From Paenibacillus sp. JNUCC-31 (lineage in GTDB: Bacteria > Bacillota > Bacilli > Paenibacillales > Paenibacillaceae): a stretch of DNA of 64,000 nucleotides. The notes beneath the pieces are model-generated. The model was not told the origin of the DNA. It saw only the letters and a program-made list of their open reading frames with translations, and searched no databases. The DNA lies in NCBI RefSeq assembly GCF_014844075.1, contig NZ_CP062165.1, positions 1,240,001 through 1,304,000 of the forward strand, given 5' to 3'. Positions within the stretch are counted from its first letter, which is position 1. Each line of letters opens with the position of its first letter. Of this stretch, positions 18,056 through 41,494 are shown piece after piece. A program made the position numbers and the translations under genes.

Positions 18056-18493
18056 CTATTCTTCTATCTCATCGTGTAGCTTTTCTAAAAACCCCCCAAA
18101 ATCCTTAGCAAGGAAATACATATTGCCTAAATCTTCAGGGTCTTCATCATGAATCCAAAAATAAACATCTCCAAAATGCTTTTCAGTAAGACCTAAGCAA
18201 ATCTGATTACCACCAGAATCATCTGCAATCGGAATAAATCCTGCGTCTAATATATCATCAAATATATCAACTTTTTTGTCTAAATTATCGTACATTTCAC
18301 CAATACCATAGAAAATATTTACCATACCAATGCCTTGCTCTTTAGAGATAGTAAAGTAATAGGGTTTAGGATATCCCCCATTGTATTTCAATAAAAATTC
18401 TCGATATTGTTGGGGAAGTTGAACTCCGTTTATTCTTTCAAAGTCTTGAAGTCTAGATTCTGTTAAAACCTCATTACTTCCTTGAATCTCCAA
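18056..18493 (-). CDS. SUKH-1/SMI1-KNR4 immunity protein
   Basis: 145 residues from a TTG with a strong GGAGGAG upstream. Classical SUKH-1 signatures are visible: LTESRLQDFERINGVQLPQQYREFLLKYNGGYPKPYYF (N-terminal helix, LPxxYxxFLLxYNGG), then IPIADDSGGNQICLGL and VYFWIHDEDPED. It starts two bases after the WHH-nuclease VgrG gene and must protect the producer from that toxin. It is the only immunity gene in the array attached to a full-length VgrG. Confidence 0.9.
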   Translation of the reverse strand: MEIQGSNEVLTESRLQDFERINGVQLPQQYREFLLKYNGGYPKPYYFTISKEQGIGMVNIFYGIGEMYDNLDKKVDIFDDILDAGFIPIADDSGGNQICLGLTEKHFGDVYFWIHDEDPEDLGNMYFLAKDFGGFLEKLHDEIEE

Positions 18494-18495
18494 TT

Positions 18496-21400
18496 TTAAT
18501 CTCCTCCTGTTCCATTTACAATGGACTGCCCGCCCATATGCTTAAATTCGTCGTGTACATCTTTTTCAACTAGTACCATTGTCTTGCCATCTTCCATATG
18601 GTGCCATGTGTACCCTTCTGGCGGTTTATTTTTTTCAGGTACAGATGGATTAGATGTTTTACTAAGCCCTGCCTCTTTATTTGCCGCCTCATAATCTTTC
18701 GGATAATTTTTAGGCTGTGCATACTCTATTTTTACTGGCTTTACATCTGGATGATAATACTTAGAAAAATCAGGGTATCCATTTGGGTAACTTACCGATA
18801 CTCCTTTTTTATTGGTGTACGTCCAGACTCCTTTTTCATCAATAGAAATGTGTCCACCTTTAGCATACCACTTTTCAGGAATACGAGCATATTTGGGTTT
18901 TGTCGCCATTATTTCTTCTGTGAAATCTGACAGTTCTAATTTCCCTGTCTTTTTACCCGTCCCCTCAGGACCTTCTTGATTTTCCTTAGGTTTAGCATCA
19001 TTTTCCTTTGGCTGTAAAGGCTTAGTGTCTTCTTTTGGCTTAGAAAGATCTTTATCATTCGTTGAAGATGGTTTCCAGGTATTCACTTCATTCGGTGTTT
19101 TATTGTTAACCGGATTCGATTTCGAACTTTCTGGCTTCGGTGTTGCATCTTTCGGCTTCGCACTTGAACCGTCTTTGTCCTTATTCGAAGAGTTCGGTTT
19201 TGAGCCTCCTGGTTTCTCAGGCACGGCGGTTGAACCGGGTTTTACCGTCGGCTCCGGAGTTTCGGGCGCAGTCTTGGGAGGTTTCCCGGCATTGGAACCG
19301 ACTCCATCTTCACCGCTGGTTTTCCATAAGGTGCCTGAACTTGGTTTTTTCGAATCATGATTCGATAAGAAGCCCCCCGGGACAATACCAACCCTCTGAC
19401 TCTCTTCCCATTTTTTCTGAATAAATGACTTCGCTGTGGCTAACCCGTTACCTACACTCGTCTTCTTACTCGCCGCTTCCGCATTCTGGATGTTTCTCAT
19501 CATCTGGCTGGTTGCCGAGTTCATCGCTGGGCTCTTAGACATACTCTTGCCACTGTACATGCTGCCCACGACCATTTGCACGCCCATACCGACTTGATTC
19601 CATTTGAGCATAGTGATCATCATCTGGGCATAGGAATCTGAAACGGGTTCACCTGTAAAGGGGTGAATCCCCAACTCAAACGCCTTAATCTGCAGTTGGT
19701 ATATATCCTGCACAGGTTCCACGGGATGTGGGTCCTGTTTCAGCGTGGCATAATCCAGGCTACCTTTATCCTTCTCATACGCTTGCATGGCGGCATGGTC
19801 GCTATCCCCATTTTCGCCCACGGGCTTCCATATTTTCCATTCGTAATCATATGCCATACGGTAGCCCTTTTCCATGTTCGCCTGCTGTTGTTGATACACC
19901 CACTTTTTCTTAATCGGTTCAGAAATCTGATGGACGAACGTACTAATCTCCTGATGTTGCTGATGCAGTTTCTTAATAAAGTCTGGAAACGACGTCGCCG
20001 TAGACAATTCACGTGCTGCTGTCAGCACCTTGCCCAGTAAGTTGCGCTTGGCATCCTGCTCATCTTGCACGAATTGGGTGAACCCGGCTTTCAATCGATC
20101 TAGCAAGCTAAGCGCCGAAGGCTTGAATGACCCCACTTTCGGTACACCCGAGATCACACCCGCTGCTACGGCAGCAATACCTACGCCTTGAACTATCGCA
20201 CTTACAGCTCCGCCAAGGGCACCCACGATGGGAATCATAGCGGTAATGGCTAACGCTGTGCCAAATAAGGACGCTTCCTTCATGCTCGTTGTGGATGCCT
20301 GCACAGTGGCTTCCGTCTTGGCAGCCAGCGCCGCAGCCTGAGCCGCTTCGTATTGCTCCAGTGGAATCAGTGGAGGCTCTGGCTCCGGAGGTAAATCAGC
20401 GACGTGCACAGGTGCCTTGTTGCTGCCCTCCTGCTGAATCTGGGCTGCGCGTACATCGGCCTGTCCATCCAGTATGAAGCTGCTCCCTCCGCCCATCAGC
20501 CAGATCGCTTCTGGCGAAGAACCCTGAATCTGTCCAGCTTCCAGCGCAATGTTGCCTCCCTGAATCGAAAGGTTACCAGGACTGGACAATACCACGCCCT
20601 GATCGTTAAGGGTGATCGTCAGACCTGATCCTGCCTGCACCTTCACCTCCTCAGGCGACATGCCGACCGAAGGCCCGGCAGGATGACCCATAACCTTATG
20701 ATCCGTGCCACCTCCAACAGAACGTTTGCCTTCCGGAACGGAATGGCGAATATACGCCCCGGATTCCAGACTCTCGGGGAAATACAGTTCTACGGTATCC
20801 CCGATCTCTGGCATCATGTACAGCCCGCTATGTCCTTCCGCTGCATAGGTTGGTGCTACTGGATATGGGCATGAGGCACCTTGCATCATTAGGCCATCGT
20901 CCATAGGCAATTTGATTTGTACGTGATCCTGTATCACCCGGACAACTTCTCCGTACAGGGACAGACCGATCAGATCTGAAAGCTCACATCTCGGTGTACG
21001 CATCTGCTCTTCCAACATCATACGGTAGGAGGTCATCAGAAGACCTGATTCCAGACGCGATATAGCTTCAACGACCGTGAGCTCCCTGCCGTCAGGAAAT
21101 TCAACCTTGTCACCCAGCGCATAGGTTTCGGCACTGTCCATCGTATACTGTAGAATACCCTGATTACCCTTGGGACTTCGGATCACATATTTCTCCTCAA
21201 CCTCTGAACCATACCATCGCATTTCTCCCAGCTCTTTCCGGACACGATAGGATTGATCTTGTGGCCATTTCCATAACCTTCCTGTCGGTAGACCAAAAAA
21301 GATCTTGGGTGAGGCAGCCGTCACTTCGGGAACTAAGAACGTGCCAAACCGGGATGCGAGCCTTCGCAGAAACATCCAGTCGGTTTCTTTATATTGTAAA

Positions 21401-21873
21401 ACAAGTCCGCTTAATTGGGTATTCCCCGTTACCTGATCTATAACGTCAGAATATCGGTATGGTTTCATAATGAATCGGACAAGCTCTCCAAATGTCCAAC
21501 CCCTGTTTTGGAAGGCCCGTTCTGCAATATGAATATCCATCTGATATGTATTAGATAACGCTTCGATCTCAAATCGATATATTCCTCCAGACAGATGAAC
21601 CTTAAGAGACGTCATGACACCATGGAAGAGACGTCTTACAGACTTTCCTGCTTCATCAACTTGCCTGAGCACAATCGGTTCCCCTTCAGCCTGAATGCGA
21701 AGGATACCCGGACCATCTTCTTCAGGAATGACTCCACTGACGTACAACTTCGCGTGCTCGTTCACCTGACGTGTAATGCGTACTTCTTCCAACCATTGGG
21801 CCTTATATGGCCAATACAGGCGAAGTTGTTCGTATCCAATACGATCTTGTAGAACCTTTGTCAATTCGTCCAT
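18496..21873 (-). CDS. VgrG-like spike fused to WHH-type HNH nuclease toxin
   Basis: 1125 residues. Residues 1-300 resemble the gpD-like part of VgrG/Pvc8 (TDWMFLRRLASRFGTFLVPE at 165-183), and 300-370 an OB-fold-like region (MMPEIGDTVELYFP). Residues 400-475 form a beta-helix-like stretch. Then come a hydrophobic Gly/Ala segment (531-576), a conserved linker (577-835), a Pro/Lys/Ser stalk (836-965), EGPEGTG (967-973) and the toxin (975-1125). The toxin has GYTWHH (W1090, H1091, H1092) and H1107, the WHH signature of HNH/Endo VII DNases. It lies two bases after the PAAR-like gene. It would be the loaded spike that carries the nuclease into target cells. Linker and junction are shared with the downstream orphan modules. 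Confidence 0.88.
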   Translation of the reverse strand: MDELTKVLQDRIGYEQLRLYWPYKAQWLEEVRITRQVNEHAKLYVSGVIPEEDGPGILRIQAEGEPIVLRQVDEAGKSVRRLFHGVMTSLKVHLSGGIYRFEIEALSNTYQMDIHIAERAFQNRGWTFGELVRFIMKPYRYSDVIDQVTGNTQLSGLVLQYKETDWMFLRRLASRFGTFLVPEVTAASPKIFFGLPTGRLWKWPQDQSYRVRKELGEMRWYGSEVEEKYVIRSPKGNQGILQYTMDSAETYALGDKVEFPDGRELTVVEAISRLESGLLMTSYRMMLEEQMRTPRCELSDLIGLSLYGEVVRVIQDHVQIKLPMDDGLMMQGASCPYPVAPTYAAEGHSGLYMMPEIGDTVELYFPESLESGAYIRHSVPEGKRSVGGGTDHKVMGHPAGPSVGMSPEEVKVQAGSGLTITLNDQGVVLSSPGNLSIQGGNIALEAGQIQGSSPEAIWLMGGGSSFILDGQADVRAAQIQQEGSNKAPVHVADLPPEPEPPLIPLEQYEAAQAAALAAKTEATVQASTTSMKEASLFGTALAITAMIPIVGALGGAVSAIVQGVGIAAVAAGVISGVPKVGSFKPSALSLLDRLKAGFTQFVQDEQDAKRNLLGKVLTAARELSTATSFPDFIKKLHQQHQEISTFVHQISEPIKKKWVYQQQQANMEKGYRMAYDYEWKIWKPVGENGDSDHAAMQAYEKDKGSLDYATLKQDPHPVEPVQDIYQLQIKAFELGIHPFTGEPVSDSYAQMMITMLKWNQVGMGVQMVVGSMYSGKSMSKSPAMNSATSQMMRNIQNAEAASKKTSVGNGLATAKSFIQKKWEESQRVGIVPGGFLSNHDSKKPSSGTLWKTSGEDGVGSNAGKPPKTAPETPEPTVKPGSTAVPEKPGGSKPNSSNKDKDGSSAKPKDATPKPESSKSNPVNNKTPNEVNTWKPSSTNDKDLSKPKEDTKPLQPKENDAKPKENQEGPEGTGKKTGKLELSDFTEEIMATKPKYARIPEKWYAKGGHISIDEKGVWTYTNKKGVSVSYPNGYPDFSKYYHPDVKPVKIEYAQPKNYPKDYEAANKEAGLSKTSNPSVPEKNKPPEGYTWHHMEDGKTMVLVEKDVHDEFKHMGGQSIVNGTGGD

Positions 21874-21875
21874 GG

Positions 21876-22310
21876 CTAGAAGTCCAATTGCTGCCCGTCA
21901 TCTTCAATCACGATATCTCCACCATACAGACACTTATGCGTACATTGACTGAGCAGGGCTGCTTTCCCTTCTACCTCGGTATCTCCCTTGCCATGCAGCC
22001 AGGGCATGGTCAAAACGGGCGTACACGGGGCTTTCTTGACTCCATAAATATCAACCATTGTACTGGTCTCTACAGCAGGATTCAGTAGATTGGAGCAGTT
22101 GCCGAAAGAACCGATATGTATGCCGGGAATGTAATCCTCGACCGTCATTTGTGCCTTGCCTTTAATATAAACCCCATGACTGAATGGAATTTTCAAACGT
22201 GTTCGTTGTGTGCCGCAGTTGCATTTCAAAATTGCGCCAGCAACGACATAGCTTTTAGGTGCATCTCCAGCACTTTGAATCTGCGTGTCTAATTCTTGTT
22301 TTAGCGCCAT
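21876..22310 (-). CDS. PAAR-like DUF4280 spike-tip protein
   Basis: 144 residues. The DUF4280 layout is clear: AGAILKCNCGT near residue 25, FGNCSN, KAPCTPV and SQCTHKCLYGGDI, giving spaced cysteines that can bind a metal at the tip, and a C-terminal GG-I-x-I strand as in PAAR proteins. PAAR proteins sharpen the VgrG trimer and seat on its end. The position between the DUF1629-like gene and the VgrG-toxin, two bases from the latter, fits a tip dedicated to that spike. Confidence 0.88.
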   Translation of the reverse strand: MALKQELDTQIQSAGDAPKSYVVAGAILKCNCGTQRTRLKIPFSHGVYIKGKAQMTVEDYIPGIHIGSFGNCSNLLNPAVETSTMVDIYGVKKAPCTPVLTMPWLHGKGDTEVEGKAALLSQCTHKCLYGGDIVIEDDGQQLDF

Positions 22311-22325
22311 CTTACTCTCTCCCTT

Positions 22326-22841
22326 CTAAGCTGTTAGCTCCTGTTCCAGCTTCACCAGTCGAACACCTGTGATATCCCGACGCAGAATACTCTCTGCCAA
22401 TGCAAGATTCACGATCATGACCGTTTCGCGCAGGTCCACTAATTGGAACAAAGGGACCTCTACCATTTCTCGTCTAAGAACGATCTGTTCCAAACTGCCG
22501 TCTATGCGCCGCTTTGTATGAGGTGACAGCACATTTGCAAGTTCTGGCGGATGAATCGCCCAATATGTTTCCTGGGTCATACGCTCCCTGTCCGTAAGGA
22601 CAGCCGCCCTGCGCTTCAGGCGGGGCTGATATAGCGTTAACACTTCAAGTAAACGATCTGATACGAGCGGAATCGGATGTTCCATATAATCCGTATAATC
22701 CACATGAACTCCACCGCGGACATTCAAGCTGATCGCCCTAAGATCGATGTTGGAATCCTGAAAAGCCTGACTCCATACCCTTCGCTGAAGTTCACCTACG
22801 GGCTCAGTCTCAGCGCGATGAATCCATCTCAAATCTGCCAT
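22326..22841 (-). CDS. DUF1629/Imm11-like protein, possible spike adaptor
   Basis: 171 residues, no signal or membrane segment. The C-terminal part (VEVPLFQLVDLRETVMIVNLALAESILRRDITGVRLVKLE) has the layout of the DUF1629/Imm11 group, where a final strand-helix reads (L/F)xL....v.vs..lae.l....(I/L)tGv.f..L. It sits between the pentapeptide gene, whose stop it overlaps, and the PAAR-like gene. In such an operon it may be a chaperone or adaptor for the spike rather than an immunity protein. Family assignment is moderate and function unknown. Confidence 0.5.
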   Translation of the reverse strand: MADLRWIHRAETEPVGELQRRVWSQAFQDSNIDLRAISLNVRGGVHVDYTDYMEHPIPLVSDRLLEVLTLYQPRLKRRAAVLTDRERMTQETYWAIHPPELANVLSPHTKRRIDGSLEQIVLRREMVEVPLFQLVDLRETVMIVNLALAESILRRDITGVRLVKLEQELTA

Positions 22842-23947
22842 TAAGCGAAAGTATTGGATAACCCTGTCCTCCCTTCGACATTGTCAAAAATCGCCCCTTC
22901 AATATTGGCATTACTCCACAGTGTATCTACCAGATTAGCTCCGCTGAAGTTGGCACCTCGAAGGTCAGCCCCTCTAAAATCTGCTCCTTTCAGGTTTGAA
23001 TTCTTGAAGTTAACTGCATCATACCCAGGTCCCTGTACAAGTCCCTCTGGGCGTCCCATATCTCCAACTACACCTCTGAATACAGCCCCTTGTAGGGAGC
23101 AACCACTGAAATCCGCTCCATAAATAAGACTATTTGAGAAGTTCACCCCTTCCATTTCACAATTCCGCCAGCGTGTGCCCACAAGCATGCAACGTTGAAA
23201 ATCGGTCAATTTCAAATCTATATTCTCAAATCTGCTGAAACGAAAGTCCAAGTCGCTGCACTCCATTTCCGCCATACTCAGTCCTTGAAAATACGCATAC
23301 ATGACAGCAATACCATTGCTTTCCTCCAGTTCCTCGCCAATTTCTTCAATGCTTCGCTCTCTCTGATCCAATCGGAATACGCATTCGCTCGCATCAAGAT
23401 ACTCCCCTACACGTACTTCGAAGTTATGTTCAAGTTTCATTTGCAAATGCAATTCCATGTCTTCTAGCAAATAGCCGCATCGTCGGATGAAATAGACGAG
23501 ATACCGGTTCACCAAAGGTACCTGCTGCAACCGAATACCTTCCAGTTCCACAGCCGTCACGGCACCTTGATAAGAAGCTAAAGTCTGTTTCAATCTTTCG
23601 ATCATCCGTTCTACACATTCATAGGCCCATTGTGCAGAATAGAACGCTCGAACTGGCCTGCGGTCCAGCAACCACGACGAATCACAAGCCTCAACCAGCA
23701 CATTCATCGCCCCACCCAGTACTTCCGTTCGCAATATAGAGTACTGGATGTAGGCGATTTTCTCTTTTGTCCTAACCTCTTGAGCAAGCGCAACTTCTTT
23801 AATAAACTCTCTGAAATGTTCCATATATTCTGCCGTCAATTCGGTTGATCTGCTCTCTAATGTACGCCTTAAATCCTCCATCAGCCTGACTCGCTCTGGC
23901 TCCACCTGATCGGCATAAAAGTGCTTCAACGAATCCTTTCGGTTCAT
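22841..23947 (-). CDS. Pentapeptide-repeat protein with long helical N-terminus
   Basis: 368 residues. Residues 1-210 look alpha-helical and charged. From about 228 to 358 there are pentapeptide repeats (for example NLKGADFRGADLRGANFSGANLVD), forming a beta-helix. Its stop overlaps the start of the next gene, and it follows VgrG1 by 35 bases. Pentapeptide proteins accompany some T6SS spikes as adaptors. Its place between the spike and tip genes suggests a loading or adaptor role, which is inference. It is not closely similar to the immunity-type pentapeptide protein at 628-1230. Confidence 0.65.
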   Translation of the reverse strand: MNRKDSLKHFYADQVEPERVRLMEDLRRTLESRSTELTAEYMEHFREFIKEVALAQEVRTKEKIAYIQYSILRTEVLGGAMNVLVEACDSSWLLDRRPVRAFYSAQWAYECVERMIERLKQTLASYQGAVTAVELEGIRLQQVPLVNRYLVYFIRRCGYLLEDMELHLQMKLEHNFEVRVGEYLDASECVFRLDQRERSIEEIGEELEESNGIAVMYAYFQGLSMAEMECSDLDFRFSRFENIDLKLTDFQRCMLVGTRWRNCEMEGVNFSNSLIYGADFSGCSLQGAVFRGVVGDMGRPEGLVQGPGYDAVNFKNSNLKGADFRGADLRGANFSGANLVDTLWSNANIEGAIFDNVEGRTGLSNTFA

Positions 23948-23982: not shown

Positions 23983-25398
23983 TTAGTTGGATTTCACCTC
24001 AGAACCACTCATCTGTGCCTGCCCATCCAATCGGAATGTCCCCCCTCCACCTTCAAGAAGTAACTGAGAACCGGCAGACAATATCATTTTCTTTCCTGCT
24101 TTCAGGGAAAGGCTGCCCCCTGCAGACATTGTGACTTGCTGGTTGCCCTTGATTTGAATGCCCTCATCTCCACTCAATCGGATAAACACTTCTCCTTCTT
24201 TTCCAGTGATAACAATGGAGTCTGGTGTCAGTCTAATCTCCTTGCCATGGGGTGTGCGAAAAATTTTGTGATCCGGATTGTTCAATTGGTTCGTTCCCGT
24301 CACCTGTGTATCTAGTCTGGGCGCTGGCGTAGCATACGCCTCTTCTTCATGCTGAGTTGGAAAATACACCGCCACCGGATCACCAATTTCTGGCATCACG
24401 TACCATCCGGTCCGCCCCTCAGAAATATAGGGAGACTGATACAGTAGCCATAGTCCATTCTCCGCTTCCTGTTCTTTATCACAATTCAGTTGTACTCTGA
24501 CATGTCCGCCATGTACCGCAAATATGCGTCCCATTAATGAGCTTCCAGCAATCAGTGGATTGTAGTACGTCTTCTGTCGCAATCCTTTGTGAAGACTTAG
24601 CACGTATTTATGCTTTAAAATACCTCCGGCAAGTTCCGTATAAGCTTCCGTAAGATACAGACTTCTGCCTCGGAATGAGATATGGTGTCCCAGTTCCATA
24701 ACTTGATCTGTCTCCACTTCGTATACAATGAAGTCACTTTCATTCACATTAACGGTCTCGTTCTCCGTGAAGTACATGAACGGAGTCATATTTTTGTGGA
24801 CGGTATAACGTGTATTATCCAGCTCAATCGAGTTACCATGCTCATATACGCCGAAATAAAATTTGGGGCTGTCGAATTGAGCCGCAGGCATCAGACTCGT
24901 GTGAAATCGGGAAGCCAGTCTTCTGAGAAATGCCCAGTCTGTTTCCTGATATTGCACGGCAACCTTGCCAATCTTGGCTCCCCCGGTCCCCTCATCAATC
25001 ACGTCCAGTCCCGGATAATCCTGATCCAGCTCCTTTAACAATTCAGGGAGCGTCATCTGGATGTTTTGAAACGTACGGGTTCGCTTTTTGACATCCATCA
25101 GGTACGTATGTGAGATTGCTTCAACCTGGAGCGTATATACGCCCCTCACAACCTGCACTTCTACAGATAAAGGAATGCCTTTGAATAGCGGACTTTTGTT
25201 CCCCTCCTCGTCCTTTTGCCACACTTCAATCGGGGTATTCTTATCCGTAACATCCACATAACGATCTTTCCATTCCTCGGATACCATACCTTTGAAAACA
25301 AGGCGGGTGTGCTCATTCATCTTTTTGCGGATTGTCAATTCTTGCAGATGTACTAGCTCATAAGGTTCAATAATCAGATTTTCATACGTCAGGCTCAT
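23983..25398 (-). CDS. VgrG-like spike protein without toxin
   Basis: 471 residues. The gpD-like core includes YQETDWAFLRRLASRFHTSLMP (about 152-173), matching the corresponding region of the fused VgrG at 18496-21873. Then come a YVMPEIGDPVAVYFP block (about 330-345), an HKIFRTPHGKEIRL segment, and beta-helix repeats of the GEVFIRLSGDEGIQIKG, SAGGSLSLKAGKKMIL type to about residue 460, ending in RLDGQAQM. It lacks the hydrophobic segment, linker and toxin. It is the shared structural spike or a short partner that could trimerise with the toxin-bearing VgrG. Confidence 0.88.
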   Translation of the reverse strand: MSLTYENLIIEPYELVHLQELTIRKKMNEHTRLVFKGMVSEEWKDRYVDVTDKNTPIEVWQKDEEGNKSPLFKGIPLSVEVQVVRGVYTLQVEAISHTYLMDVKKRTRTFQNIQMTLPELLKELDQDYPGLDVIDEGTGGAKIGKVAVQYQETDWAFLRRLASRFHTSLMPAAQFDSPKFYFGVYEHGNSIELDNTRYTVHKNMTPFMYFTENETVNVNESDFIVYEVETDQVMELGHHISFRGRSLYLTEAYTELAGGILKHKYVLSLHKGLRQKTYYNPLIAGSSLMGRIFAVHGGHVRVQLNCDKEQEAENGLWLLYQSPYISEGRTGWYVMPEIGDPVAVYFPTQHEEEAYATPAPRLDTQVTGTNQLNNPDHKIFRTPHGKEIRLTPDSIVITGKEGEVFIRLSGDEGIQIKGNQQVTMSAGGSLSLKAGKKMILSAGSQLLLEGGGGTFRLDGQAQMSGSEVKSN

Positions 25399-25413: not shown

Positions 25414-26097
25414 CTAATTCATTTCGACAATGAGTGTATCCAGAAGTGTACCACCGGGTTCCATCCAATTTCTCTTCTCATCGTCCGTACAGTTAAAACC
25501 ATAAACAAGGACTTTCTGATCTAAAATGGTGAACACCATATGGTTATAAATTTGATCATTCAACCCCTGAACAGCGAATTGGCAGTAACCCGTGGAAAGA
25601 CCAGCATCCGTCACTCGAACACCGTGTTTTTTCCATTCTCGTACAGGTTGAGTTGCACGAATCACGTCAGCCATCGATTCCGTAAAGGAATTCAACTCTT
25701 CCGGAGCAAGACGATGATCCAATGTCTTGAACGTAAAGTTGACCGTTCCCGAATCATTGGTATAGATCCATTCAGGACGATGGGACGACGGATATTTTAA
25801 CTGAGCTTCTCTTTCTGTCACCAAACGAAATGTGCGGGGAAGAGATACTGTAACCTTTCCCTCGTATAGCTCCGTTCTTCTCAGATGTATCGTTTCCTGT
25901 TCAAGGTGTATCATGGTTATTGGCTCGAATGGTTTAACTTCACTTGATTCAGCAGAGGCTTCAACATCTCTAGTCTCTGTTCCCTGATGAGGTTCACCGT
26001 TCAATGTTTTGCCATATAACATCGGGATGATTTTGCGATCCATATGTTCCATAAACGAATTCCATCCTCCCATTCTCTTGAAAATTTCAATCCACAA
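25414..26097 (-). CDS. DcrB/DUF1795-like protein of the injection operon
   Basis: About 227 residues; the exact start is uncertain (first codon TTG, internal ATGs downstream). The region from about residue 75 (VSLPRTFRLVTEREAQLKYPSSHRPEWIYTNDSGTVNFTFK) to the end (LVYGFNCTDDEKRNWMEPGGTLLDTLIVE) has the layout of the Mog1/PsbP-like DcrB/DUF1795 fold. Some T6SS and Pvc clusters carry such proteins as effector-loading factors (EagR type). It overlaps the next upstream gene by 11 bases and precedes VgrG by 15. A loading chaperone for the spike is the most natural guess. Confidence 0.55.
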   Translation of the reverse strand: MWIEIFKRMGGWNSFMEHMDRKIIPMLYGKTLNGEPHQGTETRDVEASAESSEVKPFEPITMIHLEQETIHLRRTELYEGKVTVSLPRTFRLVTEREAQLKYPSSHRPEWIYTNDSGTVNFTFKTLDHRLAPEELNSFTESMADVIRATQPVREWKKHGVRVTDAGLSTGYCQFAVQGLNDQIYNHMVFTILDQKVLVYGFNCTDDEKRNWMEPGGTLLDTLIVEMN

Positions 26098-26860
26098 TCA
26101 TACGATGTGGTCCACCCACCGGCATACCCGAACGTCCCGTTCCCCGACCTGCATTCGCCAGTATACGATCCAGATATCGATGAATCTGCGCATTATCGTA
26201 TTCTCTGTACTCCAGTCCCAATCGACTGGCAATGTGATGCAAAATGACGCTACGTGCAACCGTTCCTTCATTGAGACACATCATGGCGAAGACCAGATCC
26301 TGGGGATCAGAGGTCCCCGTTCGAAGCAACCTCTCGGCATAATCCTTCATGACAACCGGAGATAAGGTGCTTGCTCCCTCGGCTGCATAAGGAACATGAA
26401 TGACATGCAGCGTATTGAACTCCGTTGCCAAGTCGGCAAAGGTCTGATAGTCCCGCCGCAGCCGCGCCCCTTCCTTCAGCTTGAATCGAGCCAGCTCCAA
26501 CTCTCTCGATGTGCACGTTGTCTCTTCATCCAAGAGCAGTTCCGAATGGCTTATCGTCATGTCACTCACGGTCTCCTCCGCGGTAAACCGAAGCTTCAGC
26601 ACATTGACCCTTCCCGTAGCTTGGTATGCCAGTTCCATAGGCTCTGTCAGCATATAAAGCCTTCCTTTATACAGCACCATCCCAGGAGCGACGACCAATT
26701 TGTCCGGGAACACGTCTACCTCTGCACCTGCAAGAATGCCATCTGCATAACCGCGATAGTACAGTTCGATGAAGTCTCTGGGGAAATCACGTAGTCCCTC
26801 CAACATGGATGTTTTCAGAATTCTTCCCTTGTTAAAATGCGGATACGAATATGTGAACAT
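26087..26860 (-). CDS. Conserved structural protein candidate of the injection apparatus
   Basis: 257 residues of no family I can name securely. The N-terminal part has ADGILAGAEVDVFPDKLVVAPGMVLYKGRLYML, a strand pattern with repeated V-x-V and G-x-V(L/I) turns like the attachment modules of phage baseplate and tail-spike proteins. The middle part is beta-rich and the C-terminus is helical, with a Gly/Arg/Pro tail. Its location between the Hsp70-like and DcrB-like genes, in one operon with sheath, tube and spike, suggests a baseplate component. Start supported by AAAGGGGG upstream of the ATG. Confidence 0.45.
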   Translation of the reverse strand: MFTYSYPHFNKGRILKTSMLEGLRDFPRDFIELYYRGYADGILAGAEVDVFPDKLVVAPGMVLYKGRLYMLTEPMELAYQATGRVNVLKLRFTAEETVSDMTISHSELLLDEETTCTSRELELARFKLKEGARLRRDYQTFADLATEFNTLHVIHVPYAAEGASTLSPVVMKDYAERLLRTGTSDPQDLVFAMMCLNEGTVARSVILHHIASRLGLEYREYDNAQIHRYLDRILANAGRGTGRSGMPVGGPHRMIVD

Positions 26861-33421: not shown

Positions 33422-33449
33422 TTCCCTTCCCTGTGCGTTGCCTGATCCG

Positions 33450-34331
33450 TTACCATCCTTGCTCCAAAATGATAATCGTGGCATTATCCTGATGCACGAG
33501 CTGTTTTTCTTCAATCAAATCAATGATGGTCTGGGCTGCATCAAATGGCGACATGTCTTTCGCCAGTATAGTCTCCAGTTCCATCTCAGTAAGGGAGTTG
33601 TATACCCCGTCACTGCATAACACAATCTTGTCCGCCGGTTGCAGTGCAAACGGCTCGTCCGCGATTTCCATTTGTTTAAAATGGTCGTACCCCAAATAGT
33701 TGACCAGCCTTTTGCGCTGCGGATTATCCAACGCCTCCTGCTCCGATATTTCTCCAGACATATACTGTTCTTCGAGTTGAGTTTCCAGCGTATGTTTATG
33801 ATTGATAGCAAGTAGCTCACCTTTGCGAAATACGGCCAAAATACTGTCTCCTACCGCGCCCCAATATAGCTCTCTGCCCTTGATCATGGCTGATACCAAC
33901 GTTGTTCCGCCCGGAACGCCAAGCAAGTTACGAAGAATCGCCTGGTTTGCCGCATGGGAAGAAGCATCCCAAAACTCCTCTGGATCAGGAAACCGCTCCA
34001 ACTCTTCAAACTCACGGATAAATGTTTCTACGGCAGTGGTACTGGCTACTTTCCCTCCAGATAATCCGCTAATTCCATCGGCAAGTACTGCAAGTACACC
34101 ATAAGGCTCCACGGCGCAGGCAAAATAATCATCCTGCTCACTGCGAGCACCAATGGTCTGTCCATTCCCGATCTGAACACCTACTGGCCTATCGTCACGT
34201 TGCCTTACCGGAATCCGGCTTCGGACGAATAACAACAACCAGATCGACAAACAGCCTGCTGCCAGAACCCAATAAGGCGTTAGCTCCTTGTCGTTCCACA
34301 AGATCATGAAGGTATTCACTGTTGCTCCCAT
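33450..34331 (-). CDS. PP2C-type Ser/Thr phosphatase with N-terminal membrane anchor
   Basis: 293 residues. One membrane segment at about 19-38 (YWVLAAGCLSIWLLLFV) is followed by a complete PP2C domain: ARSEQDDYFACAV, VLADGISGLSGG (metal Asp and GG), WGAVGDSILAV, KIVLCSDGVYNSL and a final HQDNATIIIL. Unlike its neighbour it keeps all metal-binding aspartates. It corresponds to PppA/Stp1-type phosphatases that reset Fha and kinase in T6SS phospho-regulation. It overlaps the FHA gene by 16 bases; the precise start is uncertain because no strong RBS precedes the ATG. Confidence 0.83.
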   Translation of the reverse strand: MGATVNTFMILWNDKELTPYWVLAAGCLSIWLLLFVRSRIPVRQRDDRPVGVQIGNGQTIGARSEQDDYFACAVEPYGVLAVLADGISGLSGGKVASTTAVETFIREFEELERFPDPEEFWDASSHAANQAILRNLLGVPGGTTLVSAMIKGRELYWGAVGDSILAVFRKGELLAINHKHTLETQLEEQYMSGEISEQEALDNPQRKRLVNYLGYDHFKQMEIADEPFALQPADKIVLCSDGVYNSLTEMELETILAKDMSPFDAAQTIIDLIEEKQLVHQDNATIIILEQGW

Positions 34332-34891: not shown

Positions 34892-35437
34892 TTATTTCAC
34901 CAAAATTCGGGTATTGGCAATATAAATTAAGTCCCCTGCCTCAATCAGGCTGGGTTCTTCGATTTCCAATTTGGATGATCTGCTTTGATTTCCCTTACGT
35001 ACACCTACGCCGCTGGCCGAGTCAATATCCTCGATAAACCATTGGCCCGAGGCTTTGTTCAGCACAGCATGTTGCGGACTGATGAGGGAAGCATATGGAG
35101 TATCGGACAGATCAATGTCCGCCTCACTGTTCTTCGAACTTTTTCCGATCAATACACTCGTCTCACCCTGAATGTACCATTCCTTCACACTTGTACCGTC
35201 GTCGTCCAACAGCACGAGTTTCACAACACGTGAAGACAGCTTCTTCTTTTCCCCCTTGGTGGCAGGTATGTATTTAAAAAATAGGTATGCTCCCCCGGAG
35301 AGGACTACAATAATTCCAGTTATCCACTGGGCACCCATGTCCCGGTTAATGATGAATATGTAATACAGCACGGCTAACGAAATCATGGCGACGCATACGT
35401 CAAGCCCTATCGTCATTACCGACCTTCCTCGTCTCAC
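34892..35437 (-). CDS. Membrane-anchored FHA domain protein
   Basis: About 181 residues from a GTG at 35437 that has GGAGG at ideal spacing; an earlier GTG at 35464 lacks a good RBS. Two membrane segments (VCVAMISLAVLYYIFII and WITGIIVVLSGGAYLFF, near residues 15-55) are followed by an FHA domain (about 80-180): SVLIGKSS, SLISPQHAVLNK, FIEDIDSASGVGVR. The cytoplasmic FHA is tethered to the membrane and could anchor the phospho-signalling complex at the injection site. It is preceded by the J-domain gene (48 bases). Confidence 0.8.
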   Translation of the reverse strand: MRRGRSVMTIGLDVCVAMISLAVLYYIFIINRDMGAQWITGIIVVLSGGAYLFFKYIPATKGEKKKLSSRVVKLVLLDDDGTSVKEWYIQGETSVLIGKSSKNSEADIDLSDTPYASLISPQHAVLNKASGQWFIEDIDSASGVGVRKGNQSRSSKLEIEEPSLIEAGDLIYIANTRILVK

Positions 35438-35485
35438 TTCCATAACCTCCGCCTGAACCGGCACGATCCATTACAGGCCACCGGT

Positions 35486-35947
35486 TTACTTTTTTCGAAC
35501 TCCGAAATATCGGTCAAACATGGCGGACATATCCATTCCTTTATTGGGATCGGCTTTGCCACTGTTTGAGCTTTCCTTGCCTTTGGGGCTATAGCCAAAA
35601 AATTGTTCAAACTGTTCCTGCATTCGTGATGGATCAGACCATACCTTCTCGGTATTCATAGGTCCATTTTTTGTATGTCCACTCTTTTCTCGTGCAGTAC
35701 TGGATGATGCTCCTTTTGCCGCTCCTGGATTCCCTGTAGATCGAGGTTGTTGATTGTATGCTGCCCGTAACTCGGGATTTCCGAGTGTGCTGTAGGCCTC
35801 ATGTACTTGCTTGAAACGCGCCTCTGCCTGTGGATCTCCCCCATTAACATCCGGGTGAAATTTTTTCGCCAATTGACGATAAGCCTTCTTGATCTGCTCC
35901 GGAGAAGCTTCACGTTCCACACCAAGCACGGCATAATAATCTTTCAT
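35486..35947 (-). CDS. J-domain (DnaJ-like) protein
   Basis: 153 residues. The J-domain spans residues 1-66 ([35 protein letters not shown]) with the HPD tripeptide that activates Hsp70 ATPases. There is no zinc finger or classical C-terminal domain. The remainder is low complexity with two short FxxYFG/FDRYFG motifs near the C-terminus ([20 protein letters not shown]). The natural partner is the Hsp70-like ATPase in the same operon. It is a specialised co-chaperone for this apparatus rather than the housekeeping DnaJ. Confidence 0.85.
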
Positions 35948-35992
35948 GGTATTCGTTCCTGCCTCCCTGCCGTATTCGGGCGTAAATAAAGA

Positions 35993-36016
35993 TTAAGGGG
36001 CACCAGGGCCCCTTAA
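35993..36016 (-). terminator. Hairpin between the tube and J-domain genes
   Basis: A perfect 9-bp stem, TTAAGGGGC with GCCCCTTAA, loop of six. On the minus strand it is followed by TCTTTATTTA, a weak U-tract. It is a likely partial terminator that makes the tube gene more abundant than the downstream genes. Confidence 0.55.
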
Positions 36017-36073
36017 CATGACAGCGTTATTCTGAGCCAGTCATAACTGACCCGGAATATTAGTTGCCCCCTT

Positions 36074-36499
36074 TTATACCGGGAAGCCGCCTTCGATTTT
36101 AGTGAATTCAGTTTTGTCTTTTTTCTGTTTGATGAACAGGCTGAATTCACCCACGCCTTCGGTATCTCCGAAACGCTCTGTGTAATCCACAACGAACGCA
36201 TTAGGCATGTAAATTTTGCGTACCACTTGATCCGCTGCAACCACTTCCAGGGTTACTTTACGGTAGCAATCCGCTTTTTCAGCTGGAACGAGGGACCACA
36301 GAGCAAGTTTCATCGTGTCATCTGCATTGTCACCGTCTGTTGCTGTAATAATTTTGCCACTGATGCGAAGTGTTGCGCCTACATCTGTGGATCTAGCGTT
36401 GGAATCATCTGGTGTATCCGTGTCATACACAACTGTACGGATATTATCCATTCCCAATTCGATTGTTTCTGCGCCTTCTACTTTCAATACAAAACCCAT
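36074..36499 (-). CDS. Hcp-like tail-tube protein
   Basis: 141 residues with no signal peptide and a strong AAGGAGG. The sequence is a chain of beta-strands: GFVLKVEGAETIELGM, ATLRISGKIITATDG, MKLALWSLVPAEKADCYRKVTLEVV, FVVDYTERFGDTEGVGEFSLFIKQKK. This is the size and strand order of the Hcp/gp19 tube fold (RKVTLEVV before the final YTERFGD...FSLFI hairpin). It follows the sheath gene by 183 bases, as tube genes often do, with an attenuator-like hairpin in between. Similar proteins in Paenibacillus and Lachnospiraceae carry arbitrary database names such as membrane-associated protease. Assignment as tube is inference from layout and context. Confidence 0.7.
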   Translation of the reverse strand: MGFVLKVEGAETIELGMDNIRTVVYDTDTPDDSNARSTDVGATLRISGKIITATDGDNADDTMKLALWSLVPAEKADCYRKVTLEVVAADQVVRKIYMPNAFVVDYTERFGDTEGVGEFSLFIKQKKDKTEFTKIEGGFPV

Positions 36500-36568: not shown

Positions 36569-36682
36569 AATATATGTATAAGGTCAGCCATAAAGGCTGC
36601 CTTTAACACCAAAATAAATGTCTATAATTCGTTGTTTAAAGAATTATATTCAAAATTCAAAACTTGGAATTACTCCAGCCTC

Positions 36683-38851
36683 TTACACTTTCATCGCGCT
36701 GGTGCCTTTGGTGATCATGACCTCCAGGTTCTTCACGTTGCCGTTGAATACCAGGTCAATGTGGCACATATTGCTCTTCTCATCGATGATAAAGCTCATG
36801 TCGTCGCCTTCCTGAATGATCGAATTGATCGACCCTCGGGTTCCCAGCCACCGGCTCTTCTGACTGCTCGGATTGTTGCTGAAGAATTTGACGATATTTT
36901 CATGCTTGAAATCACCCGTCTGGAAACGGAGCAAGCGCTCAATGTAAGTACTTACGAGTGTTTTATACAAGGAATCAAAGCCATCTTCGGACATCGCCAT
37001 GCTTCTCGCTTTGTATACCGTGATCCGCTTGATATCACTATCCTGAATTTGGGCATTTTCCGATGAGAAAATAAATCCAAAGTTTTTCCGGTTAATCGAA
37101 TCCTTGATAGTGTTCGTAAATCCGGAGATTTCTTTGGTCATCGTAGTTACTACACGCAGACTGTTATCGCCTGCTTCAATATCAAAACGCACACCTGGAT
37201 AATCCCGGTTCACGGTTTTGAATGCGCCTCGTAGGTACTCAGGGCACTGATATGCAGCCACAATTCCGGCAGATACATAAGACGCACCGACATACACACC
37301 TTCAATCCACAGCTTCAGAATGTCTTCTTTCTCCTTGGAAAGCTCCACACCATTCTCCGTCTGGAGCATACGACTGTCGATAACAACACCCGATTTCTCT
37401 TTCGGAATGATGGTGAAATTCGGAGCACTTGGAATGGCGAATTCGCTGTAGTCCTTGCGAGTTAATACCGCGCATTTATCAATATATTTATCGATGCCTG
37501 CGGTAGCCATGCTGCTGAATGTAGTCTCTTCTCCAGATTCAAAGCTGAAGAATACTTGTACTTTGTAGTCTTTAACGACTTGCAGGAGCATGGACAAGGA
37601 TTCCATACTGTTTCCGTCTTGTTTAACGACTTTCTCGTTACCACGGAAACGGGCACGACTGACTTGAACTTGTCCCGTATTCTCCAGTTCAACGGAAGGA
37701 ACAATACCGAACCAAATGGTGTCGGTAAAATCATTCTTCGCATTGACTGTGTTGAGATAGGTCTCCAGCCGCGGAATGTTACTGCTCTTAACAAGCATAT
37801 CCAGCTTGGCATTGGCAATCAGCATGGAAGGCAGCATGCCTTTGTTTTTGGTCGCATATTGATCAAAGAACATTTTGACACCCAAAATTTTCTCTACCAG
37901 CGGTTTTACGGTTTTCACAAAGTCATCCTTGGCGTTCTTGTAAAATTCCAGGTATGTATTGTAATTCTGTACTTCAACTGCCGTATCGACATCCGTCTGA
38001 ACCGCAGGAAGTGGGCAGAATGTACGAACGACCAGATCCTGTACATACGGTGAAGGTGCCTCGGAGAGTGAATCATAATCTTCGGCAAACACCTGAGTCA
38101 AATCTGTGCTTGTCGACTCATCCAGGAGCATCAACTCGTTGTTATCACTCTTTGGAGCTTCGATAATTTTCAATTCTCCGCTCTCACCAATCGTGAGTTG
38201 TCCTACCTGAATCGCTTCGGAAGAAGTTTCTTCTTGAGCACGGCCCAGCAACAAGCGGGTTTTGATATCTTCGATGGCCAGTGGCAGCATTGCCATAACA
38301 TTGTTATAGTTCCGGCTGGCATCTTCAAACATGACATTAAGTTTATCCCCGATATCCAACTTCTTCGGGTCCCCGTCATCCAGCTTCTCATGCTGGCCAT
38401 ACATGTAATGAATTTCTTTCCGTACCTGCCGAATGTCATCCATAACCTTTTTCGGTGAAATCATATCCAGCAAATTTTCAAACTTGAAATCTACATTCGT
38501 AATCCCCTGACTACGTTTGGTATCGATCAGGGTAAAGAGCATTCTCAGGAAGTCATTGCTATGATCAATTTTGATCTCAGAGATTGCTTCATCCGGAATC
38601 CCTTCCGGTTTTTTAAGCGTATACATGACTTTCTGGTTTACCGCATTGAAAAAGGAATACACACTGGGAGAAAACTTGTCCAAAAACTCATCGAAGTTTC
38701 GTACAAGCAAGTGTTCGTTGATCTCCTTGATCTTGTCATCATTCAAACTGTCGATCCCTTTTACGTCACCGACAATCGTAATCAAATCCATTTTCTCAGG
38801 ATTGATCTCTTCAAAAAGCATCGTTCGGTTCGTTTGATTAATAATATCCAT
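36683..38851 (-). CDS. Fused TssB-TssC-type contractile sheath protein
   Basis: 722 residues, about the sum of TssB (160-180) and TssC (490-500) with a linker. The N-terminal part resembles TssB: LLVRNFDEFLDKFSPSVY, then NVDFKFENLLDMISPKKVMD and IRQVRKEIH, paralleling the F-x-x-xDFxPexV...qVxxLRxLl pattern. The C-terminal part resembles TssC: a long alpha/beta core, a SRFAHYLK-like region near residue 630 and a final beta-hairpin ending in VKNLEVMITKG. RBS AGGGGGA precedes the ATG. It is the first gene of the long minus-strand operon. The fusion is the main departure from canonical T6SS. Confidence 0.72.
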   Translation of the reverse strand: MDIINQTNRTMLFEEINPEKMDLITIVGDVKGIDSLNDDKIKEINEHLLVRNFDEFLDKFSPSVYSFFNAVNQKVMYTLKKPEGIPDEAISEIKIDHSNDFLRMLFTLIDTKRSQGITNVDFKFENLLDMISPKKVMDDIRQVRKEIHYMYGQHEKLDDGDPKKLDIGDKLNVMFEDASRNYNNVMAMLPLAIEDIKTRLLLGRAQEETSSEAIQVGQLTIGESGELKIIEAPKSDNNELMLLDESTSTDLTQVFAEDYDSLSEAPSPYVQDLVVRTFCPLPAVQTDVDTAVEVQNYNTYLEFYKNAKDDFVKTVKPLVEKILGVKMFFDQYATKNKGMLPSMLIANAKLDMLVKSSNIPRLETYLNTVNAKNDFTDTIWFGIVPSVELENTGQVQVSRARFRGNEKVVKQDGNSMESLSMLLQVVKDYKVQVFFSFESGEETTFSSMATAGIDKYIDKCAVLTRKDYSEFAIPSAPNFTIIPKEKSGVVIDSRMLQTENGVELSKEKEDILKLWIEGVYVGASYVSAGIVAAYQCPEYLRGAFKTVNRDYPGVRFDIEAGDNSLRVVTTMTKEISGFTNTIKDSINRKNFGFIFSSENAQIQDSDIKRITVYKARSMAMSEDGFDSLYKTLVSTYIERLLRFQTGDFKHENIVKFFSNNPSSQKSRWLGTRGSINSIIQEGDDMSFIIDEKSNMCHIDLVFNGNVKNLEVMITKGTSAMKV

Positions 38852-39064
38852 TCAGGCAACATCCCCCTAATGATGGTTCATTTGGGCGAATGCTTCCCCC
38901 CCTCCATCAATTTTTGACACTCCGCACATCTCTATCAGCCTTCAGTCATGATCCAGGAGAATCAACATCCCCAGCACACACAAGACCAATAGAACGAGCT
39001 GTCAACATACGACTGGAACTTATGTACCAGATTATGCCGTTTGCTTTGGAGATTTATGGAATTC

Positions 39065-39094
39065 ATCTTAATCATCAGCGATATGTTTTGTCAA
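39065..39094 (-). promoter_or_regulatory. Candidate sigma-A promoter of the injection operon
   Basis: On the minus strand TTGACA (39089-39094) and TAAGAT (39065-39070) are separated by 18 bases, giving a leader of about 200 nt before the sheath ATG. The 576-base intergenic region 38852-39427 separates the sheath operon from the divergent vWA gene. No gene is supported in it, and no operator was recognised. Confidence 0.5.
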
Positions 39095-39427
39095 CAATCT
39101 CCAATATAGGTCTAAAAGCTCATTTTATAACCTTCTATATACCTATAGAACTAATTTCTAGAATTCACTTCAATTCCTTACGAATCATGCCGATGATATA
39201 GAATATCCTATAATTTGGATGATGTTCAATGATTTAAGACTAGTGGAGTTTTCCCCCTAATTAAGAGTAAAAAGACTTAAAGTATGCGGTGTTGCATTAT
39301 TATTAACAAACAAAAACTACGCATAACGGCCTTATATCGTGAATAAGCAAAAGTTTTAAAAAAAGTTTTAGTATTTCCAAAAAATGAACTCAAGTTTTCA
39401 AACCAGAAAGGAGATTCGAAGCCTCAC

Positions 39428-41494
39428 ATGATATTAATTAAATGCAAAAAAATACTGCTCTCCCTATTGGTGATTAGCGTTTTAATTCCAGCATGGGACA
39501 TTGGGAGCTTGTACGCGGAATCCTCTGTCAAGACCCACGCGTATGAAGGGCTTGATGCCATGTTTGTCCTGGATGTTAGCTACTCCATGAATGAGACCGA
39601 CAAAGATCGCATCGCTGAAGAAGTTATACATATGTTTATGGATATGAGTAGTGGACCTAAGACTCGATTGGGATTCGTAGCTTATAATGATCAAATCACT
39701 TCATCCGTACCCCTAATGGATATATCATCCTCTGGGGCACGAAATAACCTTCGTAGTCGTGTTGACGGCTTAACACGCTCAGGGTATACCGATCTTGGAC
39801 TCGGCTTGCGCCGAGGTGCGAGCTTGCTTGAACAGTCCCAGACGGACAAACGAAAGCCATTTATGATTTTGCTCTCTGACGGCGAGACGGATTTGCGTGG
39901 TTCGTCGGGCAGAACACCAGCTGATTCTTCCAAAGATGTAGACAAGGTGATTGAGATGGCTCAAAAAGCTAATTATCCCATCTATACCGTCGGACTAAAC
40001 CGCGATGGTACAGTTAACCCCGCTGAACTGGAGCGGATAGCTCAGGAGACGGGTGGATCTTCCTTTATCACGGGAAGTGCGGACGACTTGCCTGAAATTT
40101 TCAACCGGATTTTTGCAGATCAGATTCAATCTGTTCTTGTATCTGTGGCGGCAGTAACAGCAACAGGGGCAATGCAGGAAGTAACTGTGGACATTCCCAA
40201 TTCAAGCATGGCGGATGCTAACATTATCATGCTCTCGGATCATGCTGTCTCTGAAGCTCAGCTGTATTATCAGTCGAGCAATGTCAGCTTCATCCGATCT
40301 GATAAATATGCTTTAATGAAGATCATTCGTCCGGTCAAAGGACAGTTCAAGCTGAAATTCAAGGGGCGCAGCGGAGATTTGGTGAAGATCAATCTACTTG
40401 GTAACTACAACGTGTCTGCGGTTGCAAATATGGCAACGGAGCAGCCTGTTAAGGGGAAAAGCATCACATTTGAAGCCTCTCTCTACGATCAGGCCGTGAA
40501 CCCTAAACCCATTCAGGATTTGAATGTTTACAAGGGACTTGAAGCAGAACTCATTGTGACCCCGTCTGATGGCAAAACAGAGCGTATCCCTTTGGCCAAT
40601 ACGGGCAGCGGGTTTAAGGGGAACTACACTTTTCCAAAATCGGGTATATACACATGGGGTCTTCGGATTGATGGTCCTGACTTTTATCGGGAGATCACCC
40701 CCGTTGAAGTAGATATTACGAATCAGGCCCCCATAGCAACCGGGGAGTCCATGGTGTTATCCAAAGACGATAGCAATACAGAGGCTGATCTAAGCAAATA
40801 TTTTAAGGATGCCAATAATGATCCATTAACGTATGCCCTCGCAAAAGGTGGGAGTGAGCGCAAACTCGGAGATGCTGTTATTGAAGGCAATATACTTCGC
40901 TGGTCTTCGCTTCACACCGGTAGTTCATCCATCAAGGTGACCGCAACGGATTCCGAAGGCGCTAGTGTAACCGCAGACATCCAGTTGCAAATTCATTCTT
41001 TACGCGAAAAGATATTGCTATATACGGGACTCGGTCTCCTCGCAGCCGGGGGAATCTTCGCCCTGTATTGGTTTGTGCTGAAGCCAAAACCTGTATTTCG
41101 CGGAAGACTGGAAGGATACTTCTTGGCCACTGCAAACGGAGAAGATATTCCCGTGACGAATTGGCCACTGACTTCATTAGAGCGACGAAAAGTAAGTCTC
41201 AGTGAACTGTTTGATCGTATGGACATTGGGGTTAAGGTACCGGAGTCAGGACGAATCTGGCTGGAAGCTGGTAAAAAAGAAACGTTATTGGTTCGGCATG
41301 ACACGAACTGCACAGTCGTTCGGGGACGAACACCCGTGAAGCCCAGACATACAGAAGCTCTGGAGTATAATGAAAAGTTGTATATTACGTTTGAGGATGG
41401 AGTCACGGAGATTGAAATTCGATACAAAGCCATCAAACCAAGTACCAATATCTATGTAGGACAAAAGAAAGATCCACAGCAGGCCATGGGGTAA
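39428..41494 (+). CDS. vWA-domain membrane protein with signal peptide
   Basis: 688 residues. A signal peptide (about 1-30, KKILLSLLVISVLIPAW) precedes an extracellular von Willebrand A domain (about 43-235) with an intact MIDAS: DVSYSMN (DxSxS), SGYTD and LSDGETD. An Ig-like beta region, a cadherin-like segment (about 430-515, SKYFKDANNDPLTYAL), one membrane segment (ILLYTGLGLLAAGGIFALYWFVL, about 530-553) and a beta-rich cytoplasmic domain follow. It is divergent from the sheath operon. vWA proteins accompany the kinase (PpkA) in T6SS signalling; here it could sense contact outside and signal or anchor inside. RBS GAAAGGAGA lies about 12 bases upstream. Confidence 0.8.
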   Translation: MILIKCKKILLSLLVISVLIPAWDIGSLYAESSVKTHAYEGLDAMFVLDVSYSMNETDKDRIAEEVIHMFMDMSSGPKTRLGFVAYNDQITSSVPLMDISSSGARNNLRSRVDGLTRSGYTDLGLGLRRGASLLEQSQTDKRKPFMILLSDGETDLRGSSGRTPADSSKDVDKVIEMAQKANYPIYTVGLNRDGTVNPAELERIAQETGGSSFITGSADDLPEIFNRIFADQIQSVLVSVAAVTATGAMQEVTVDIPNSSMADANIIMLSDHAVSEAQLYYQSSNVSFIRSDKYALMKIIRPVKGQFKLKFKGRSGDLVKINLLGNYNVSAVANMATEQPVKGKSITFEASLYDQAVNPKPIQDLNVYKGLEAELIVTPSDGKTERIPLANTGSGFKGNYTFPKSGIYTWGLRIDGPDFYREITPVEVDITNQAPIATGESMVLSKDDSNTEADLSKYFKDANNDPLTYALAKGGSERKLGDAVIEGNILRWSSLHTGSSSIKVTATDSEGASVTADIQLQIHSLREKILLYTGLGLLAAGGIFALYWFVLKPKPVFRGRLEGYFLATANGEDIPVTNWPLTSLERRKVSLSELFDRMDIGVKVPESGRIWLEAGKKETLLVRHDTNCTVVRGRTPVKPRHTEALEYNEKLYITFEDGVTEIEIRYKAIKPSTNIYVGQKKDPQQAMG

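Follow-up and report, generated by a model that had tools for sequence, protein, structure and literature searches.

A 64,000-nucleotide stretch of the Paenibacillus sp. JNUCC-31 genome (positions 1,240,001 to 1,304,000 of its single 7.55-Mb contig; hereafter the window) carries an operon that we read, with a probability of roughly three in four, as encoding a cell-borne contractile injector of monoderm Bacillota that resembles the type VI secretion system (T6SS). The operon comprises 18 open reading frames (ORFs) running from position 38851 to 18056, all on the minus strand, with gaps of at most 183 nucleotides and several overlaps, and a gene for a vWA protein diverges from its upstream end (Table 1). 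The locus is conserved, real and beyond what chance would produce. An earlier, sequence-only reading of the window had described this minus-strand run with its divergent vWA gene and proposed a T6SS-like contractile injector of unfamiliar layout in a Gram-positive host. The ORFs that it named lie where it placed them, and the tube, spike, tip and toxin cargo, together with the lack of a DotU or IcmF match, bear out the injector; its "contractile" part is only likely, since it hangs on the sheath assignment.

The 141-residue protein that had been called the tube from its position in the layout is, on profile evidence, an Hcp relative. Twenty of 23 homologues, which are relatives of each other rather than independent sequences, match the TssD family PF17642 (which we take to be the Bacteroidota type of Hcp) at E values up to 1, the best being 3.2e-5; the window protein by itself gives no match. 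When the family profile is searched against 177,635 PDB sequences, Hcp1 comes out on top (6bdc; E 0.011), and the ratio of nonsynonymous to synonymous substitution rates (dN/dS) is 0.005-0.086 across five strain pairs. Two family f45 genomes encode proteins (241 and 252 residues; loci L130 and L185) that resemble TssD in the first half of their length (E 0.0056 and 0.023) before continuing into an extension, an arrangement reminiscent of cargo-bearing Hcp. A further tube homologue (33% identity, E 2e-16; positions 3147-3758 of L223) lies beside a vWA gene on a plasmid of Megamonas funiformis (Negativicutes); apart from that vWA gene, its surroundings have no core gene annotated.

In Pfam scans of the locus proteins, the two FHA domains, the PP2C domain of the 33450-34331 product, DnaJ, DUF4280 and vWA exceeded their families' own cut-offs, and Phage_GPD, HSP70 and both PP2C-type matches of the 31565-33514 product fell below theirs. 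The FHA and PP2C genes of the sequence-only reading are thereby recovered, as are its PAAR-like tip, a DUF4280 protein, and its two VgrG spikes: the OB domain PF04717 passes its cut-off in VgrG1, and the VgrG1 family aligns with Proteobacterial VgrG in profile comparison at P = 1.1e-18; the Phage_GPD scores are 28.1 and 23.2 bits in the two proteins, below the cut-off of 30.1.

The 722-residue product of the first gene is probably the sheath and likely a fusion of TssB and TssC, as sequence and model comparisons suggest. Aligned with hhalign, TssB matches the candidate's family at P 0.018 over its whole length and 0.0049 for residues 1-235, and none of 28 unrelated profiles aligns as well; in a search with the TssB hidden Markov model, homologues of the candidate fill 58 of the top 60 rows. 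The two clades of the family contribute different signals: taken separately, clade 2 matches the first TssB motif (P 0.013), and the match of clade 1 lies mainly in the second (P 0.0055). An AlphaFold model built from 19 sequences has a mean predicted local distance difference test score (pLDDT) of 50; its region 250-616 aligns to VipB 17-352 at a root mean square deviation (rmsd) of 8, and VipB entries stand at ranks 3, 4, 6 and 31 of the structural matches with at most 247 residues aligned. The gene is a single ORF, free of stops, in all 34 genomes of the order that match it, and its dN/dS is 0.013-0.014 in the two of five strain pairs with unsaturated dS. The TssB-like N-terminal motifs and the weak VipB match thus speak for the fused halves of the sequence-only reading, as a likely assignment rather than a demonstrated one.

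Two observations slightly lower our confidence in this picture: the longest VipB alignments of the sheath model have an rmsd near 8, and the TssD matches of the tube homologues were counted at E values as high as 1. Searches with the candidate against Pfam, NCBIfam, PHROGs and PDB profiles recovered no sheath family, and neither the locus proteins nor 30 homologues of the candidate match the phage-type sheath family PF04984, with E values as high as 1 allowed. Two other matches were discarded. PDB profile matches of the family to NS1 proteins covered only 35-36 residues and disappeared with the 30-sequence alignment A7, and TssG matches of four members of alignment A1 (best E 0.24), likewise absent with A7, were treated as noise. 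The profile comparisons used Proteobacterial Tss proteins, among which only VgrG was clear; the Hcp profile failed to recognise even the TssD-positive tube family (P 0.18), so the failed comparisons with TssC, TssF, TssG and TssK are weak evidence. The comparison of p257, p229 and p431 with TssE, TssF, TssG and TssK that the sequence-only reading had called for produced no assignment: the signal in the locus proteins was not above background, and the TssF profile placed p431 first, but at an E value of 1.7.

If the 722-residue protein were no sheath, the locus could instead encode a non-contractile export or toxin-loading system built on Hcp and VgrG and driven by its Hsp70-like ATPase. The lack of a significant sequence match between this protein and any sheath family, and the presence of the Hsp70-like gene in every one of 105 loci, would suit such a system. 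The TssB-like N-terminus, the fitting size and the presence of VipB among the structural matches argue for a sheath, however, and the locus also encodes tube, spike and tip homologues, which normally operate within one. We therefore regard a sheathless system as unlikely.

The cargo of the spike points to competition between cells. VgrG2 ends in a nuclease toxin and is followed by a SUKH gene, and its spacer recurs, within residues 573-995 by blastp, in six ORFs that lie downstream of the operon and differ in their ends (Ntox15, Endonuclea_NS_2 twice, a YwqJ-deaminase, Tox-SHH and one without a Pfam family). A shared spacer with differing ends marks the orphan cassettes of polymorphic toxins. 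Between the cassettes lie genes for a YezG-like immunity protein (15430-15885) and a DUF4261 protein (12780-13604), and the array also contains an Endonuclease V gene (8904-9605). VgrG2 carries a hydrophobic, transmembrane (TM)-like segment at residues 534-578. DUF1795 proteins are known as Eag chaperones for T6SS effectors with membrane segments, and a profile of 13 homologues of the 25414-26097 product (p227) matches DcrB (13cz, E 6.6e-5) and DUF1795 (6e8a, E 1.1e-4); PF08786 is found in two of the 13 (best 0.004) and is absent from the window member. The genome has a single sheath match but three spike islands, counting the window locus: two satellite islands with the order VgrG-pentapeptide-p171-DUF4280-VgrG, at 0.868-0.888 Mb (L225) and 4.056-4.076 Mb (L226), have no sheath of their own. 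Toxin ends also vary elsewhere: the DUF4280 proteins of L132 and L134 match an AHH nuclease just under the cut-off, one VgrG of genome G143 (L140) ends in an LHH nuclease, and its neighbour, which matches the VgrG profile made here and not Phage_GPD, has a deaminase end.

A toxin accompanied by immunity and orphan cassettes is the competition pattern of polymorphic toxins rather than a pattern of self-killing. The spike-borne nuclease, adjacent SUKH gene and orphan array accordingly tell against a cytoplasmic contractile system that acts on its own cell in death or development, a very improbable alternative here. Such a role would suit the host, presumably a spore former as its genus implies, and the lack of an obvious channel spanning the envelope; PMC12237407 reports a contractile injection system of this kind in Streptomyces.

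The earlier claim that the trans-envelope proteins TssJLM are missing holds for two of the three: DotU (TssL) and IcmF (TssM) have no match at E <= 0.001 in the whole 7.55-Mb genome, under conditions in which an Escherichia coli positive control worked, and TssJ was outside the search. The claim that ClpV is missing stands for the locus, Pfam scans finding none among its 19 proteins; no genome-wide ClpV search was made. Pfam likewise recognised no AAA ATPase, tape measure, tail fibre or lysis gene in these 19 proteins, although divergent forms could escape, and named no Ser/Thr kinase among them; the absence of lysis genes agrees with the sequence-only reading. Hydropathy places TM-like segments in FHA1, PP2Cb and the divergent vWA protein. 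Where at least 3 kb of upstream sequence was available (92 loci), a vWA gene lay upstream of the sheath gene divergently in 58 and on the same strand in 7, with none within 5 kb in 27. Published abstracts describe FHA, PP2C and a kinase acting jointly in T6SS regulation.

These data also bear on the possibility that the particle is freed by lysis, like an extracellular contractile injection system (eCIS) or tailocin, and is not anchored in the cell. The unmatched DotU/IcmF membrane complex would be expected of such a particle, and Gram-positive eCISs exist, among them one of Paenibacillus jilunlii whose toxin has been tested, according to passages of PMC8213781. Against it stand the FHA and PP2C genes kept in 99 of 105 loci, the TM-like segments just described and the lack, within the reach of Pfam, of a PF04984 sheath or any of the other particle and lysis genes in the locus; the genome's two classical phage-type PF04984 sheaths lie elsewhere, at 4.977 and 4.988 Mb, perhaps in a prophage, tailocin or eCIS. 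We give release by lysis only a small chance.

The sheath gene is found in 34 of 198 genomes of the order (73-100% identical), in 13 of 398 genomes of the phylum, the same 13 by BLAST and by profile, and, with a clade 2 query, in 40 of 350 genomes of the class of G571, the thirteenth of these phylum genomes. Paenibacillus amylolyticus Heshi-A3, Paenibacillus sp. LS1 and OVF10 have the sheath candidate at 100% identity. Genome contigs yielded 249 sheath stretches, the best 80 of which are nearly all from Paenibacillus, Brevibacillus, Cohnella, Aneurinibacillus, Sporosarcina, Lysinibacillus and Solibacillus. No sheath relative was found in collections of phages, plasmids and viral contigs, and a mobile origin was set aside on that ground. 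Loci with 9.5 kb or more of downstream sequence number 105 and include many close relatives and some genomes present under two names; all have the tube and Hsp70-like genes, 101 each have p431 and p229, 99 each have DnaJ, FHA1, FHA2 and PP2Ca, and 98 have PP2Cb. A second clade with 28% sheath identity (L134, L132/L133) keeps DUF4280, p171, sheath, tube, VgrG, p431, p229, Hsp70-like and p257 genes, and the DNA examined for five of its loci contains no DnaJ, FHA or PP2C gene. The core common to both clades therefore lacks the phospho-regulators and includes the Hsp70-like ATPase. Four of these five loci (L132/L133, L183, L184 and L189) have four Hsp70-like ORFs each.

The DUF4280 tip follows the sheath closely. 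It occurs in 34 of 34 sheath-bearing genomes of the order versus 43 of 164 others, in 12 of 12 versus 0 of 19 within the genus, and in 12 of 13 versus 7 of 385 across the phylum, counts that overstate independence because the genomes are related; in G571, the remaining sheath-bearing genome, a DUF4280 match at E 9.3e-4 fell below the cut-off. The 43 genomes of the order that have DUF4280 but no sheath match, 37 of them in family f6, have one copy each, which suggests a second context for DUF4280.

Comparison with nine of the 11 other sheath-bearing congeners (best tblastn piece per gene) suggests that the operon consists of three exchange units: sheath, tube and regulators; p431, p229, Hsp70-like and p257; and spike and cargo. 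In all nine, the sheath, tube, FHA and PP2C products are 80-100% identical to those of the window, and DnaJ 60-90%. In L229, L231 and L234, p431, p229, Hsp70-like and p257 fall together to 44-56%, the spike set falls to 26-38% and p227 is not found; in L235-L237, p431 to p257 hold at 70-95% and the spike set is at 31-61%; in the other three, the spike set is at 58-100%. Comparison of the first two groups reveals two sharp breakpoints within the operon, one before p431 and one before p227. The Hsp70-like gene moves with the presumed baseplate genes in all nine congeners, which speaks for its product acting in baseplate or spike assembly rather than in sheath recycling, although the genes could also travel together simply as neighbours. 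In 13 aligned sequences, two glycine-rich motifs of this 883-residue protein (232-242 and 443-451), presumably of the phosphate type, are largely invariant.

Overall, we envisage an injector in which Hcp/TssD-type rings would build the tube and the fused TssB-TssC-like protein would wrap it as the sheath. The spike, either VgrG1 or the effector VgrG2, would carry the DUF4280 tip and sit on a baseplate of p431, p229 and p257. The Hsp70-like ATPase and its J-domain partner may assemble or recycle baseplate and spike, the DUF1795-like protein may cover the hydrophobic segment of VgrG2, and the membrane FHA, PP2C and vWA proteins may replace TssJLM as anchor and trigger. Firing would drive the C-terminal nuclease across the wall into a neighbour, and the SUKH protein would guard kin, as their domain families suggest. 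On evenly balanced odds, we further propose a fifth, monoderm class of T6SS: cell-anchored, with a fused TssBC sheath, an Hsp70-like ATPase and J-protein in place of ClpV driving baseplate and spike assembly or recycling, and FHA, PP2C and vWA proteins in place of TssJLM. Such a class would be a contact weapon widespread among Bacillota, into which spike and baseplate modules can be plugged.

A terminator-like hairpin in the gap between the tube and DnaJ genes could act as a partial terminator, letting sheath and tube outnumber the downstream products; five sites of this type occur in the 3.7 kb scanned, a mild excess over the 2.8 expected from shuffles.

Table 1. Features of the proposed injector locus, in window coordinates; values after Pfam accessions are E values
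Feature	Position	Strand	Evidence
Sheath candidate, 722 residues; TssB-like ~1-205 and TssC-like ~230-722 as read	36683..38851	-	hhalign, model, conservation
Tube protein, 141 residues, Hcp/TssD relative	36074..36499	-	PF17642 in homologues; PDB Hcp1
Terminator-like hairpin and T-rich tail, tube/DnaJ gap	35992..36017	-	10-bp stem; 104-nt fold z -2.3
DnaJ (J-domain) protein	35486..35947	-	PF00226 1.4e-25
FHA1: two TM-like segments, then FHA domain	34892..35464	-	PF00498 9.8e-8; hydropathy
FHA2: FHA domain, no TM-like segment	34316..34849	-	PF00498 1.7e-6; hydropathy
PP2C phosphatase a (PP2Ca)	33450..34331	-	PF13672 2.4e-14
Protein b (PP2Cb): PP2C/SpoIIE-like, TM-like 289-316, TPR	31565..33514	-	PF07228 2.4e-4 and PF00481 0.017 (both below cut-off); PF07719 above
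p431, core protein, baseplate candidate	30273..31568	-	In 101/105 loci; no Pfam family
p229, core protein, baseplate candidate	29576..30265	-	In 101/105 loci; alignment A3
Hsp70-like ATPase, ~230-residue N-terminal extension	26892..29543	-	PF00012 0.009, below cut-off
p257, core protein, baseplate candidate	26087..26860	-	Alignment A5 of 11; kept in distant L133/L134
p227, DcrB/DUF1795 relative, candidate Eag-type effector chaperone	25414..26097	-	Family-profile matches 13cz, 6e8a
VgrG1 spike	23983..25398	-	PF05954 (below cut-off), PF04717 (above); family hhalign
Pentapeptide-repeat protein, spike module	22841..23947	-	PF00805 1.1e-21
p171, spike-module protein	22326..22841	-	Adjoins DUF4280 in L123, L124, L132, L134, L137, L139
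PAAR-like tip (DUF4280)	21876..22310	-	PF14107 7.3e-31
VgrG2: spike and colicin-DNase/WHH nuclease toxin fusion	18496..21873	-	PF12639 1.6e-14, PF14414 2.9e-13, PF05954 4.6e-5 (below cut-off)
SUKH-family protein, presumed immunity	18056..18493	-	PF09346 4.4e-24
Array of six orphan toxin cassettes, spacer common with VgrG2	1243..16889	-	blastp to VgrG2
Divergent vWA protein, N-terminal signal-like and C-terminal TM-like segments	39428..41494	+	PF00092 7.4e-20; hydropathy

With T6SS types i (Proteobacteria) and iii (Bacteroidota) the locus shares an Hcp/TssD tube, a VgrG spike, a PAAR-like tip, effector-immunity pairs, FHA and PP2C regulators, a DUF1795-type chaperone (presumably in the Eag role) and probably a TssB/TssC-type sheath, and it probably works like a T6SS. 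It differs in having one polypeptide for both sheath halves, if this is the sheath, rather than separate TssB and TssC; in belonging to a genome where nothing matches DotU or IcmF; in its Hsp70-like ATPase and J-protein, with no ClpV seen in the locus; in baseplate genes that are not recognisable; and in its monoderm Bacillota host. Because two features fail, separate TssB/TssC and TssL/TssM, we do not file it under T6SS types i-iii. The tube, spike and tip logic is common to eCISs and R-type tailocins, whose PF04984-type sheath was not found in this locus. The T6SS of the archaeon Halogeometricum also has toxin-immunity pairs and a host without an outer membrane, and its contractile injector has been shown to sit on the membrane; according to passages of PMC11566945, it differs in using genes of the contractile injection system type (Cis2, Cis11), with a six-TM protein as putative anchor. 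The same 2024 paper, in the part consulted, states that T6SSs had previously been described only in Gram-negatives.

An unknown Gram-positive phage-like translocation system had been postulated from DUF4280 in PMC5349215, which had the tip only, and in PMC8651086, passages of which describe a tip and spike and state that conserved eCIS/T6SS genes are not present around them. Common to that system and to our locus is DUF4280 adjoining a Phage_GPD-type VgrG in Bacillota; beyond this, the locus has a tube and probably a sheath, along with regulators and other core genes. No published description of the machine was found by title or abstract among the matches listed, preprints and most subscription journals lying outside the search, and the passages of PMC3482391, PMC5014421 and PMC12381145 that were consulted do not describe it. 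We read the locus as fitting the system postulated from DUF4280, and so as a near-complete candidate for the machine behind the Gram-positive tips. Since its core is kept between two distant clades of Bacillota loci, the question of which machine those tips belong to becomes directly testable by gene deletion and cryo-electron tomography. The locus also poses a mechanistic question: how a phage-tail device might pass through a thick wall when it lacks the TssL/TssM complex and perhaps ClpV as well. A weapon type known until now almost exclusively from Gram-negatives may thus have a counterpart in Gram-positive bacteria, in many species of which the cluster recurs.

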